Shown here: positions 27,850-62,431 of the stretch, in pieces
Layout: every line of letters begins with the position of its first letter
How positions within the stretch are numbered: position 1 is the stretch's first letter
NCBI GenBank assembly: GCA_013336165.1
Contig: JAAXUF010000005.1
Coordinates: forward strand, 62,001 to 126,000
Origin: Coriobacteriia bacterium
GTDB lineage: Bacteria; Actinomycetota; Coriobacteriia; Anaerosomatales; JAAXUF01
DNA length: 64,000 nucleotides
Direction: 5' to 3'
Program-made: the position numbers and the translations under genes
The notes under the pieces: model-generated
Told to the model about the DNA's origin: nothing
The model's database searches: none
The model's input: the letters and a program-made list of their open reading frames with translations, nothing else

Positions 27850-27871
27850 GGCGGGCACAAAAATACCCGCC
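27850..27871 (-). promoter_or_regulatory. Hairpin between FMN riboswitch and ribU
   Basis: Stem GGCGGG/CCCGCC with a T-rich loop lies 24 bp before the ribU start, on the transcript after the aptamer. It could be part of the expression platform, either ending transcription or hiding the ribosome site. No clear T-run follows it, so translational control looks more likely. Confidence 0.45.
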
Positions 27872-27916
27872 GATGGTCATCTGCGGGCTTCAAGCACGTC
27901 CACTTTGGACGAGTGC

Positions 27917-28047
27917 TCTGTTCTTTCATCCGGACTATACCGTCGGTCCCGGAATTGCACCGGATCAGCGGCACTTGCATGCCGGTCGCGGACTTATGGC
28001 TCTTGCCAATCACCGCCGGTGAGGAATCGCACCTCGCCCTGAACAGA
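27917..28047 (-). ncRNA. FMN riboswitch (RFN element)
   Basis: On the minus strand the RFN core elements appear in order: AGGGCGAGGTGCGATTCCTC then ACCGGCGGT, AGTCCGCGACCG, GGTGCAATTCCGGGACCG, ACGGTATAGTCCGGATGAAAG. The closing P1 helix pairs TCTGTTC (28047-28041) with GAACAGA (27923-27917). This matches the FMN aptamer throughout. It controls the ribU-ecf operon that follows; FMN binding should lower riboflavin uptake. Confidence 0.96.
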
Positions 28048-28126
28048 CTCACCAGAATAGTAGCCGCCTCGTGCGGTTTTGTAAACGCCGAGTTCTTCCG
28101 AGTTCCGCCAAGTCCCTCTCATGCAG

Positions 28127-57404: not shown

Positions 57405-57450
57405 GCATCCTCCTTGTGGAAATCGATCACGGATTCTTGGACGCCCCCGC

Positions 57451-57504
57451 CAAAACGAAGAAGCCCGCTGCCCTACAGAGAAATCTGTCGGCAAACGAGC
57501 TTCG
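57451..57504 (-). terminator. Attenuator hairpin in the btuF leader
   Basis: On the transcript, CGAAGCTCGTTTGCC (57504-57490) can pair with GGCAGCGGGCTTCTTCG (57472-57456), allowing G-U pairs, and TTTTG follows. It sits between the cobalamin aptamer and btuF, where an intrinsic terminator would be used to stop the message when B12 is bound. Confidence 0.5.
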
Positions 57505-57616
57505 AGTTGAAAGCGGAGCGGATCGGGGTGAAGTCTCCGGCGCGAGCTTTCGAGCCTGCTTTCGAGACATCACCGCGAGCCGGCCTTGCACCTCGAAGGC
57601 CGCGTCGCGCATCACC

Positions 57617-57747
57617 TTGGCAGGTCTCCTGACTTGGGGAGCGCACAAGCGCTTCCCTCTACAGTGGCGGGTCCCGTCCCGGATTCGCACCGGGTTCCCT
57701 ATTCTCCCGCGACTGACGTGTCCGCGGGCACCAAGTGACGCCTATTC
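57617..57747 (-). ncRNA. Cobalamin riboswitch
   Basis: On the minus strand the B12-box elements are clear: GGTGCCCGCGGAC, AATAGGGAACCCGGTGCGAA, TCCGGGACGGGACCCGCCAC followed by TGTAGAGGGAAGC, and the 3' box GTCAGGAGACCTGCC. All conserved blocks are in the normal order. It controls btuFCD. The 400 bp between btuF and the divergent gene at 57808 is mainly this RNA and its attenuator. Confidence 0.96.
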
Positions 57748-57807
57748 AGTTGGCAATGCGGTCAGTGTAGTCTAGGCGCAGCGGCGGCGCCATCAGGAAT
57801 CCGCCGA

Positions 57808-58377: not shown

Positions 58378-59088
58378 CTATGCCCTGACCTCAAACTCCT
58401 CAAACTCCGCGCCGAAGCCATCCGGCAACGCGGTCAGCGGGTCCGGACCCAGCCCGACCGTGATCGCCTCCGGCCGAGTGCCCTGGGCACGAAACGCCTG
58501 CAGTGCCCATCGCCGCACGCCAAGCGAACTCAGCTCTCCCGCCATGCGCCGGAGCGCATCCAGGCCGAGAAGTCCCGGGTGCACCGTCGTCCGCACCTCG
58601 TAGTCGACGGCGCTCGCGAGCAACGCCTGCAGACTCATCCGCGCGTGCTCGCCGCTGCCGGGCACGCGCGTGATGCGCTCGTACTCGGCGAATGGTGCTT
58701 TCACGTCGAAACCAACCCAGTCGGCCAAGGAGAGCGCCTCGGCGAAGCGCTCGGGTAGCTGCCCACCGCTGTGCAGGGCCACACGCATGCCCAGCTCGCG
58801 CACTTCGCGCATTGCTGGCAGCAGCGCCCGCTGCGCAATGGGCTCACCACCGGAGAAGACGACTCCGTCGAGCAGCCCGACGCGCCCCTCGATGAACCGG
58901 CGAACCTCGCGCCACGCCAGCGCCTCGGAACCGGCGGCCGCCGCAGCGGACAACAGTGCCGGGTTATGGCAGTACACACAGTCCCACGGGCAGCCCTGGC
59001 AGAAGACCGTCGCTACAAGCTGGCCGGGCCAGTCGCACGTCGACAGACGCGTCAGCCCTCCGATGCGAAGGTCAGCTGAGGTCGACAC
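58378..59088 (-). CDS. nrdG: Anaerobic ribonucleotide reductase activating protein NrdG
   Basis: A 236-residue radical SAM enzyme. The [4Fe-4S] motif is CPWDCVYC (CxxxCxxC) near residue 34, followed by VVFSGGEP for SAM binding. It uses SAM to make the glycyl radical on the reductase. The start is placed at GTG 59088, overlapping the small glycyl-radical gene by 17 bp; no strong ribosome site is seen, so translation is probably coupled. Upstream in-frame starts lie inside that gene. Confidence 0.9.
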   Translation of the reverse strand: MSTSADLRIGGLTRLSTCDWPGQLVATVFCQGCPWDCVYCHNPALLSAAAAAGSEALAWREVRRFIEGRVGLLDGVVFSGGEPIAQRALLPAMREVRELGMRVALHSGGQLPERFAEALSLADWVGFDVKAPFAEYERITRVPGSGEHARMSLQALLASAVDYEVRTTVHPGLLGLDALRRMAGELSSLGVRRWALQAFRAQGTRPEAITVGLGPDPLTALPDGFGAEFEEFEVRA

Positions 59089-59266
59089 GCGACTCGAGGA
59101 AGCAGGTTCGCTCGGCGTACTCGCCCTGCTTCCCGCGGTTGAACGACGAGACCGGGCGATGGTAGCCCATGACACGCGTCCAGACTTCGCAGGGCTGGCG
59201 CTCGTTATCGGCCAGCGCGATCGCGGACTGCGCGGAGACTTCTTCGGTCGCGGTGATATCACTCAT
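59072..59266 (-). CDS. Stand-alone glycyl-radical domain of class III ribonucleotide reductase
   Basis: A 64-residue protein. CEVWTRVMGYHRPVSSFNRG corresponds to the extreme C-terminus of NrdD, where RVxGY carries the glycine that becomes the radical. The large NrdD protein just upstream ends after the zinc site and has no such motif. The gene has its own ATG with AGAGGAG, 18 bp after the nrdD stop, in another frame. It is thus a separate gene, not read-through. NrdG must activate this small subunit for NrdD to work. Confidence 0.88.
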   Translation of the reverse strand: MSDITATEEVSAQSAIALADNERQPCEVWTRVMGYHRPVSSFNRGKQGEYAERTCFLESRVDLS

Positions 59267-59283: not shown

Positions 59284-61326
59284 TTAAGCCACGCCGACGG
59301 CGTCGCGTTGCTTGCGTGCGGCGATCTCGAGATCACACTTGGGGCAGAATGGGTGCTCCCCTGCCAGATAGCCATGTGTCGGGCAGATCGAGAACGTCGG
59401 TGTGATGGTGATGTAGGGCAGCCGGAAACCCTCCAGCGAGCGGCGCACAAGCTTGCGGCACGCATCCGCCGAGGAGACCCGCTCGCCCAGATAGAGATGC
59501 AGCACGGTGCCGCCGGTGTACTTGCGCTGCAATTCCTCCTGAAGCCCGAGCGCCTCGAAAGCGTCGTCCGTGAAACCGACCGGCAGCTGGCTCGAGTTGG
59601 TGTAATACGGCGTCACAGGCGTGCCCGCTTGCAGGATTCCGGGGAAACGCTTCTGGTCCTCGCGGGCGAATCGGTGCGTGGTGCCCTCGGCAGGTGTCGC
59701 TTCAAGGTTGTAGAGATGTCCGGTCTCCTCTTGGAAGCTCACGATCTTCGTACGCACATGGTCGAGAAAGCGGATCGCGAACGCGCGGCCCCACGGCGTG
59801 GTGATGTCGTCTTCGTCGCGTGTGAAGTTGCGGATCATCTCGTTGACACCGTTGACGCCCACCGTCGAGAAGTGGTTGCGTAGCGTGCCGAGGTAGCGCT
59901 TCGTGTAAGGGAACAGCCCGTCGTCGATGTGGCGCTGGATGACCTTGCGCTTGATCTCGAGACTCGTGCGCGCGAGGTCGAGCAGCTCATCGAGGCGCGC
60001 GAACAACGCGGCCTCATCGCCCTGATGCACGTAGCCCAGACGCGCGCAGTTCACGGTCACGACGCCGAGCGAGCCGGTCTGCTCGGCGCTTCCGAAGAGG
60101 CCGTTGCCGCGCTTGAGAAGCTCGGTCAGGTCGAGCTGCAGACGGCAGCACATCGAGCGCACCATGTTGGGCTTGAGCTCGGAGTTCAGGAAGTTCTGGA
60201 AGTACGGCAGGCCATACTTCGCCGTCATCTCGAAGAGCAGCTCGGCATTCTCGCTCTCCCACGGGAAGTCCGGTGTGATGTTGTACGTCGGGATCGGGAA
60301 TGTGAAGACGCGACCCTTGGCGTCGCCCTCGGTCATGACCTCGATGTAGGCGCGGTTGATCATGTCCATCTCGACCTGAAGCTCGCTGTAGGTGAACTCC
60401 ATGACCTCGCCGCCGATGACGGGATACTGGTCGCGGAGGTCCTCCGGGCAGACCCAGTCGAAGGTAAGGTTGGTAAACGGCGTCTGGGTGCCCCAGCGCG
60501 AAGGCACGTTCAGGTTGTAGACGAGTTCCTGGATCGACTGGCGCACCTTCTCGTACGATAGCGAGTCCTTGCGGATGAACGGCGCCATGTACGTGTCGAA
60601 GGAGGAGAACGCCTGCGCACCCGCCCACTCGTTCTGTAGCGTGCCGAGGAAGTTCACGATCTGCCCGACGGCGCTCGAAAGGTGCCTGGGTGGGGCCGAC
60701 TCGACCTTGCCCGGGACACCGTTCAGTCCCTCAGTCAGCAGCGTACGCAGCGACCAGCCGGCGCAGTAGCCGGACAGCATGTCAAGGTCGTGGATGTGGT
60801 AGTCGCCGTCGCGGTGCGCCTGCCCGACCGCAGCCGGGTACACGTGCGACAGCCAGTAGTTGGCGACGACCTTGCCCGAGATGTTCAGGATGAGCCCGCC
60901 GAGCGAGTAGCCCTGGTTGGCGTTCGCGTTCACGCGCCAGTCGCTGCGGTCGAGGTACTCGTTCATCGAAGACTCCACCTCGACCACCGTGCGGCGATCG
61001 TTGCGCAGCCGGGCGCGCTGTTCGCGGTAGACGATGTAGGCACGCGCCGTCTCGAAGTGGTTCGCCGAGATGAGCACCTGTTCGACGACGTCTTGGATCT
61101 CCTCGATATGCAACGCCTTCTCGGCGAAGCGGTGGACGAGGACCTTCAGTGTCTGGCCGGCAAGCAGGTCGGCCTCAAGCTCGCCGAACTCGCCGGTGGC
61201 CCGGCCCGCACGTGCGATGGCCGAGCGGATCTTGGACGCGTCGAATGGTGCCTCTTCGCCGGCACGCGTGATGACGGTGGAGAGCACCTTGTCGGCAATG
61301 GAGTCGTTACTGTTCGCGCAGGACAA
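59284..61326 (-). CDS. nrdD: Anaerobic ribonucleoside-triphosphate reductase large subunit lacking the radical glycine
   Basis: A 680-residue class III reductase. Residues about 15-100 are an ATP-cone (ITRAGEEAPFDASKIRSAIA, ETARAYIVYREQRARLR). The barrel has DYHIHDLDMLSGYCAGWSLR, MCCRLQLDLTELLKRGNGLF and GSLGVVTVNCARLGYVHQGD. Those cysteines likely include the thiyl-radical residue. The C-terminus keeps ICPTHGYLAGEHPFCPKC, a metal-binding site, then ends after 14 more residues without RVxGY. I chose TTG 61326 because AAGGGGGA precedes it and upstream codons are not family-like. Confidence 0.93.
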   Translation of the reverse strand: MSCANSNDSIADKVLSTVITRAGEEAPFDASKIRSAIARAGRATGEFGELEADLLAGQTLKVLVHRFAEKALHIEEIQDVVEQVLISANHFETARAYIVYREQRARLRNDRRTVVEVESSMNEYLDRSDWRVNANANQGYSLGGLILNISGKVVANYWLSHVYPAAVGQAHRDGDYHIHDLDMLSGYCAGWSLRTLLTEGLNGVPGKVESAPPRHLSSAVGQIVNFLGTLQNEWAGAQAFSSFDTYMAPFIRKDSLSYEKVRQSIQELVYNLNVPSRWGTQTPFTNLTFDWVCPEDLRDQYPVIGGEVMEFTYSELQVEMDMINRAYIEVMTEGDAKGRVFTFPIPTYNITPDFPWESENAELLFEMTAKYGLPYFQNFLNSELKPNMVRSMCCRLQLDLTELLKRGNGLFGSAEQTGSLGVVTVNCARLGYVHQGDEAALFARLDELLDLARTSLEIKRKVIQRHIDDGLFPYTKRYLGTLRNHFSTVGVNGVNEMIRNFTRDEDDITTPWGRAFAIRFLDHVRTKIVSFQEETGHLYNLEATPAEGTTHRFAREDQKRFPGILQAGTPVTPYYTNSSQLPVGFTDDAFEALGLQEELQRKYTGGTVLHLYLGERVSSADACRKLVRRSLEGFRLPYITITPTFSICPTHGYLAGEHPFCPKCDLEIAARKQRDAVGVA

Positions 61327-61374
61327 TGGATCCCCCTTCTTGCTTGCATGGCAGAAGCGGACGTGACGCCCGCC

Positions 61375-61413
61375 GAAAAAAGAACCCGTCACCTCCGCTG
61401 AGGCGAACGGGCT
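61375..61413 (-). terminator. Intrinsic terminator (attenuator) in the nrdD leader
   Basis: On the transcript GCCCGTTCGCCTC pairs with GAGGTGACGGGT around an AGCG loop, and TTCTTTTTT follows directly. It lies about 50 bp before the nrdD start codon, so it would stop the message before the gene. A regulated read-through is implied. Confidence 0.75.
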
Positions 61414-61426
61414 TTCAGAGCATAGC

Positions 61427-61498
61427 GGTTCGAAATGACATCGAGAGACCCCCGGACACCGCGTGGTCGTCACGAGCCGGCCTCGATCACTTCGAAGG
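61427..61498 (-). ncRNA. Structured leader RNA upstream of nrdD (candidate cis-regulatory RNA)
   Basis: On the transcript TTCGAAGTGATCGAG (61496-61482) pairs with CTCGATGTCATTTCGAA (61445-61429), about 14 pairs with a few mismatches or bulges. It encloses an inner GGCCGG/CCGGGG stem. The terminator follows 14 bases later. I do not recognise it as any known riboswitch class; T-box, FMN and cobalamin patterns are absent. The 382 bp upstream of nrdD otherwise holds no gene. Confidence 0.5.
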
Positions 61499-61708
61499 TC
61501 GTACCGTGCGTCACTGTCATCGCTATTCTTAGCTGACAACGACCCAAGTCTAGCCGAGCAAGACCATGGGGGGAAGCTAATCCGACGACGAAATTCGGCG
61601 ACCTGACGAACGGCGCCCTGCGAGCGACGATCACAACCTGTTGCGGAGCCGAACGGTCGCAAACACCATACCTTGTGGTTCGCTCCGCTTGTTGCGCCTA
61701 GCGGTTCG

Positions 61709-62041
61709 CTACCCTCGCGAGTACTTTGCGACCCTCACGGCCTCGACGACCACAAGGCCGCTGCCCACCATCTCATCAAGCTTGGGCATCACGCGCGCGA
61801 CGTTCTCGGCAGTGTCCACGAAGACGATCATCATCGGCAAATCGCTCGAGAGGTCGAGCAGGTGGGCGGCGTGCATGCGACTCGATTCACCGTAGCCCAG
61901 CGTGCCCTTGACGACCGTGGCGCCGGCGACTCCCTCGGCATGCAACATGGCCACGATGGCCTCATAGAGCGAGTGCGAGTGCCAGCGGTCGGTCTCGCCA
62001 ACCATCACGGTCACACGCTCTGCGTCAAATTCAGTCTTCAT
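61709..62041 (-). CDS. DUF190 domain protein
   Basis: A 110-residue PII-like fold protein (TVMVGETDRWHSHSLYEAIV, GATVVKGTLGYGESSRMHAA, DLPMMIVFVDTAENVARVMP). DUF190 genes often lie beside crcB, as here, and may regulate or support fluoride export. I chose ATG 62041 since GGGG stands 9 bp before it; ATG 62050 adds three residues but has no space for a ribosome site. It starts after the crcB stop. Confidence 0.88.
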   Translation of the reverse strand: MKTEFDAERVTVMVGETDRWHSHSLYEAIVAMLHAEGVAGATVVKGTLGYGESSRMHAAHLLDLSSDLPMMIVFVDTAENVARVMPKLDEMVGSGLVVVEAVRVAKYSRG

Positions 62042-62053
62042 GCGCGCCATCCC

Positions 62054-62431
62054 CTAGATCGATCGGCCGATAAGGATGCCGAGCCACGCTGCTGCCAGCC
62101 CTACCACGCCGCTGCCGAACATGTTCGCGAACCCCGCCGCCATCAGGCCGCGCTCCATGAGCGCGATCGACTCATACGACAGCGTCGAAAACGTCGTGAA
62201 CCCGCCCAGAACCCCCGTGCCGAGGAACAGCCGCCAGTTGCCGGGCACAAACCCGCGATCCAGCGACATGGCCATGAGGATGCCGATGAGGAATGCGCCA
62301 GCTATGTTGATGACGAATGTCGGCCAAGGAAAGCCCGCCCCGGTGCGCGTGGCGATCCAGCCGCCGAGACCGAAGCGCAGTGCAGCGCCGAAAGCGCCGC
62401 CAAGCGCCACTACGATCACGTCCCGGGCCAA
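62054..62431 (-). CDS. crcB: Fluoride channel CrcB/FluC
   Basis: A 125-residue four-helix membrane protein. GGAFGAALRFGL at the start, PTFVINIAGAFLIG with the polar-track Asn, and GVLGGFTTFSTLSYE with the Phe box and Na+ site are the FluC signatures. It lets fluoride leave the cell. TTG start with GAGAGGAAG upstream. The 85 bp before it show no clear fluoride riboswitch. Confidence 0.92.
   Translation of the reverse strand: MARDVIVVALGGAFGAALRFGLGGWIATRTGAGFPWPTFVINIAGAFLIGILMAMSLDRGFVPGNWRLFLGTGVLGGFTTFSTLSYESIALMERGLMAAGFANMFGSGVVGLAAAWLGILIGRSI

Follow-up and report, generated by a model that had tools for sequence, protein, structure and literature searches.

The nrdD locus and its leader

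The 64,000-nt stretch of DNA analyzed here (the window) carries nrdD, which encodes a class III ribonucleotide reductase. Its same-strand neighbors on the 5' side are crcB and a DUF190 gene; on the 3' side are nrdG2 and a cobalamin riboswitch with a BtuF-like gene. The genome also contains nrdJ and nrdR. The features of the gene and its leader are as follows.

59284..61326 (-), nrdD, the regulated gene (PRK08270/NF006126, with an ATP cone)
61324..61338 (-), TTG start codon of nrdD (61326-61324) and Shine-Dalgarno sequence AAGGGGG (61338-61332), inside the stretch homologous to btuF leaders (alignment to 61313)
61376..61413 (-), intrinsic terminator found by folding and hairpin scans: stem of 13 bp interrupted by a single bulged U, AGCG loop, tail TTCTTTTTT
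61429..61439 (-), 3' arm of the long helix, GUCAUUUCGAA, counterpart of the conserved CCCCGAA in close btuF leaders
61486..61496 (-), 5' arm of the long helix, UUCGAAGUGAU, overlapping the former antiterminator strand CUUCGAG
61525..61552 (-), weak candidate promoter TAGACT-N16-AAGAAT, recognized by eye (8/12 to consensus); the RNA start would be near 61518
61631..61646 (-), NrdR box 2, CCGCAACAGGTTGTGA, 32 bp from box 1, found by matrix scan
61663..61678 (-), NrdR box 1, CCACAAGGTATGGTGT, found by matrix scan and paired with box 2

The nrdD gene ends without a glycyl-radical motif; the motif, RVMGYHRPVSSFN, is encoded on a separate 64-aa ORF immediately 3' of nrdD (window 59072-59266, minus strand), whose product corresponds to the C-terminus of the Pfam NRDD and PRK08270 models. 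This split was found in 82 of 87 related loci checked, from several phyla, and the two parts were fused in four. The position of crcB-DUF190 immediately upstream of nrdD (window 61709-62431, minus strand) is a local rearrangement (L168, L169): crcB and nrdD are separated by other genes in genome G001, and in genome G002 crcB-DUF190 lies approximately 3.5 kb upstream of the btuF riboswitch, with nrdD absent from the interval.

A preliminary description of the leader had reported a long helix, then a GC stem with a T-run, approximately 50 nt before the nrdD start. The sequences and coordinates were confirmed on the minus strand, where an 11-bp helix (61496-61486 with 61439-61429) is followed by the terminator (61413-61376), whose U-tract ends at 61376, approximately 50 nt upstream of the start codon. 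The 126-nt leader folded at -51.4 kcal/mol, versus -44.4 +/- 3.6 for shuffled sequences (z -1.9; 7 of 200 shuffles did as well). Of the folded, attenuated leader proposed there, the terminator stood and proved exceptional, being the strongest clean hairpin with T6 within the 64 kb, but the long helix taken alone was at chance level: helices of at least 11 bp occurred in 24 of 300 shuffles, and the leader body by itself (61417-61518) folded no better than chance (-35.7 versus -35.3 for shuffles, 41% of which did as well). Support for the long helix is comparative and comes from the btuF-type leaders described below, not from nrdD leaders. A 16-codon upstream ORF, MTVTHGTTFEVIEAGS, which begins at 61524 and overlaps the helix, was rejected; it has no evident Shine-Dalgarno sequence, and its stop codon is unconserved in btuF leaders. 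Elsewhere in the window, an FMN riboswitch (RF00050, 111.9 bits, 27863-28050, minus strand) is directly followed by a hairpin and T-run; this terminator near the FMN aptamer, at 27863(-), is the only other clean one of similar strength.

The NrdR boxes were located with a matrix trained on boxes from other nrdD/nrdJ regions, in which 31-32 bp was the commonest spacing. The nrdD pair was the best tandem pair in the 64-kb window (score 25.4 versus 19.3 for the next). Genes of the NrdR regulon have tandem boxes spaced approximately 31-32 bp in front of an nrd gene, in a genome with nrdR; nrdD, with boxes 32 bp apart and both nrdR and nrdJ in the genome, fits this pattern and is probably under NrdR control. 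RNA from a putative NrdR-controlled promoter at the box pair would include the leader. The promoter-like site at 61525..61552 resembled the -35 region of G001 nrdD only faintly and not significantly, and a promoter scan returned nothing in the nrdD leader region, this site included. Since the scan found no promoter and none is visible in the approximately 50 nt between the terminator and the nrdD start, transcription of nrdD most likely crosses the terminator.

Homology to btuF-type riboswitch platforms

Apart from the leader itself, a covariance model built from it alone (R1) matched the sequence that immediately follows the btuF cobalamin aptamer in three genomes of the same family. Local alignment of the nrdD leader with the btuF leader of G001 scored 104, versus maxima of 41.6 among 300 shuffled sequences and 52.4 among 300 control stretches of the window. 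The homologous span, 61515-61313, opens with the final strand of P1, a helix of the aptamer, and continues through the platform, terminator, Shine-Dalgarno sequence and start codon to approximately the fourth codon. The corresponding features, and those of the riboswitch of the BtuF-like gene, are as follows.

61505..61515 (-), P1 helix of the aptamer, 3' strand, AGTGACGCACG; homology stops sharply on the 5' side, where the local alignments start at 61514/61515
61471..61508 (-), hairpin at the core of the platform, which reads GCGACGCGGCCUUCGAGG...AUCGCGG in relatives; here five positions that are otherwise invariant have decayed
61363..61369 (-), GCGTCAC after the terminator, complementary to the P1 3' strand; GCGTC also occurs in close btuF leaders
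57602..57749 (-), the genome's sole cobalamin aptamer, intact and belonging to the BtuF-like gene (RF00174, 88.6 bits)
57436..57615 (-), homologous platform joined to that aptamer (121 bits), within the R3 training set

To avoid circularity, a second covariance model (R3) was trained on six platforms of the btuF type, with the nrdD leader left out. Only the btuF copy outscored the nrdD leader, which reached 48.3 bits, with E-values of 2e-11 for the window and 6.8e-10 for the whole genome; E-values from home-made covariance models are rough. Of 69 genomes of the order, 46 contain platforms recognized by R3, with essentially a single copy in each. The btuF-type expression platform is a group defined in this analysis, not an Rfam family; tests for BtuF homology covered G000, G001 and G002, and other leaders are called btuF-type by their shared platform. 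The nrdD leader matches this group in sequence and structure and has an intrinsic terminator before the start codon. It shares with the btuF-type RF00174 riboswitches of the order the P1 3' strand, the position of the core hairpin, the terminator, the spacing, the Shine-Dalgarno sequence and the start region, but it lacks the aptamer, is changed at five core sites, has lost the antiterminator pairing and precedes a different gene. Its origin from a btuF-type cobalamin riboswitch platform is near certain. The nrdD leader resembles the btuF leader of G001 (104) more than that of its own genome (54.8), which makes misassembly of the local btuF riboswitch an unlikely source.

The pairing of the platform was examined in 29 aligned copies. 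In the core hairpin and terminator, 89% of cells were paired and 15 pairs were changed on both sides, counts that lean towards the model because the alignment was fitted to it; none of 500 shuffles equaled this pairing, and sliding the partners reduced it to 37-52%. A MAFFT alignment of seven platforms gave 92.5% pairing and 7 pairs changed on both sides. Directly 3' of the btuF-type aptamers, the motif GCGAcGCGGCCUUCG(A/U)GG is highly conserved across the order (L187-L216) and lies outside RF00174; it may be the switching element of btuF-type leaders.

The absence of an aptamer and the altered platform

In all 29 other platforms checked (20 of 20 loci tested by Rfam and nine read directly), an RF00174 aptamer stops precisely where the platform begins. 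Among the platforms seen, that of nrdD alone lacks an aptamer, and this state is known from one genome only. An Rfam search of 61300-61800, at gathering thresholds and at E<=10, returned nothing relevant and no RF00174, leaving no recognizable copy of that family's conserved cobalamin-binding core. Aptamer alignments in the 200 nt upstream of the nrdD platform were no better than those of shuffles. A source for 61516-61720 was sought downstream of DUF190 and in the nrdD riboswitches of relatives, with no match above shuffles. A literature search for aptamer-less platforms found no paper with the terms used, a result that says little.

The Rfam search that the preliminary description had called for thus agrees with its view that no known class matches. 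The leader is nevertheless homologous to the platform of a btuF-type cobalamin riboswitch and not standalone. The nucleotides and cobalamin suggested there as ligands have no recognizable binding domain, since the aptamer is missing. A lack of conservation in relatives, which that description gave as grounds for rejecting its idea, was indeed seen among nrdD leaders, but homologs occur before a different gene, in btuF-type leaders.

The nrdD copy of the platform does not contain the core motif GCGAcGCGGCCUUCG(A/U)GG, being changed at five positions that are invariant in 27 others; one outer core pair is compensated (G-C to A-U). Its terminator is kept, with a compensatory change from C-G to U-A, and has the longest U-tract among the 29 platform copies. 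The family antiterminator pairs CUUCG(A/U)G with C(U/A)CGAAG of the terminator arm, at 6-7 of 7 positions in most copies but with breaks and 4 of 7 in nrdD, which lacks this btuF-type pairing; its covariation across the family is modest, one pair flipping from A-U to U-A in four sequences. The long helix is full (7/7) only in the nrdD copy, where the former antiterminator strand is completely paired. No replacement antiterminator from inside the leader or from upstream (p 0.74) rose above shuffles.

Cobalamin riboswitches do precede nrdD in related bacteria. Among seven readable leaders of nrdD orthologues in the order, a full cobalamin riboswitch was present in L003, L004, L007 and L010 and absent from L005, L006 and L008; it was also found in two more of the order (L173 and L174) and in 9 of 13 leaders sampled from other phyla. 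These riboswitches of the order precede the same gene and occupy the same place, between NrdR boxes and the start codon. However, they have a full aptamer, a different downstream part and no evident terminator in the leaders printed, and the leader described here is not homologous to them; no nrdD leader of the order matched it at the DNA level or by covariance model. Its structure is therefore not one conserved in homologous nrdD leaders, as a standalone riboswitch class would have it. In Propionibacterium acnes, a cobalamin riboswitch has been annotated in front of nrdDG and interpreted as silencing nrdD by cobalamin when the B12-dependent NrdJ can work (PMC3848588). The relatives probably use cobalamin in the same way, and this input to nrdD appears to have been dropped in the present genome.

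Proposed control of nrdD by the remnant platform

Our computations show the origin of the nrdD leader, the missing aptamer, the retained terminator and the broken core and antiterminator; from these we infer that the leader functions as a fixed attenuator. In the reading that we favor, with a probability of roughly 60%, it is the expression platform of a btuF-type cobalamin riboswitch without its aptamer and acts as a ligand-independent attenuator under NrdR-controlled transcription. RNA polymerase would start upstream of the leader, probably under the control of NrdR, and meet the terminator while the strand able to compete with it, CUUCGAA, is held in the long helix. With that strand presumably unavailable, most transcripts would end near 61376, whether or not cobalamin is present. 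The output of nrdD would be low, independent of cobalamin and set by read-through and NrdR; the gene is thus probably expressed at a reduced level that is no longer set by B12. Selection should remove a terminator that merely blocked nrdD, yet this one looks maintained, which hints at some remaining control.

The main rival supposes a modular swap, in which the sensor was removed and the retained terminator re-wired to a new input for the class III reductase. That input could be a new sensor in the approximately 115 nt from NrdR box 2 to the platform (61516-61630), NrdR-linked transcription or a trans-acting antiterminator. The terminator has been not only retained but improved, the 61516-61630 stretch lies exactly where an aptamer would be, and a small hairpin (61516-61540) adjoins the platform. 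However, the upstream stretch folds like shuffles (p 0.38-0.44), has no relatives that we could find and, as noted above, offers no antiterminator above chance. We consider such a swap unlikely, though the strongest of the alternatives.

Somewhat less likely still is that the terminator merely ends transcription from upstream, of crcB-DUF190 or of a short RNA, with nrdD starting downstream of it. Both genes share the strand of nrdD, and our scans gave no second terminator in the interval from them to nrdD; however, neither the scan nor inspection by eye gave a promoter-like site in the approximately 50 nt that follow, the NrdR box pair lies approximately 250 nt upstream of the terminator, and in relatives the homologous element serves as an attenuator within a leader.

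An ordinary cobalamin riboswitch with a very diverged but still binding aptamer upstream would fit the position and ancestry of the platform and the control of nrdD by cobalamin riboswitches in relatives. It is improbable given the lack of an RF00174 signal at E<=10, aptamer alignments at shuffle level, the broken aptamer-associated core motif and a space of approximately 115 nt where such aptamers take 130-150 nt. A new standalone class sensing nucleotides or dNTPs, suggested by an attenuator before a dNTP-making gene and the lack of an Rfam match, is the least credible, as homology to cobalamin riboswitch platforms accounts for the structure and no other nrdD leader contains it.

As the aptamer-less platform of the favored reading, the nrdD leader offers a concrete case of riboswitch evolution under way, in which the output half outlives the sensing half before a different gene, its terminator bearing compensatory changes. 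With this example one can test whether a platform of this kind persists as a fossil, works as an attenuator of fixed level or has already been captured by a new input. The case also indicates that orphan leaders without an Rfam match can be identified through their expression platforms, which are absent from aptamer models.
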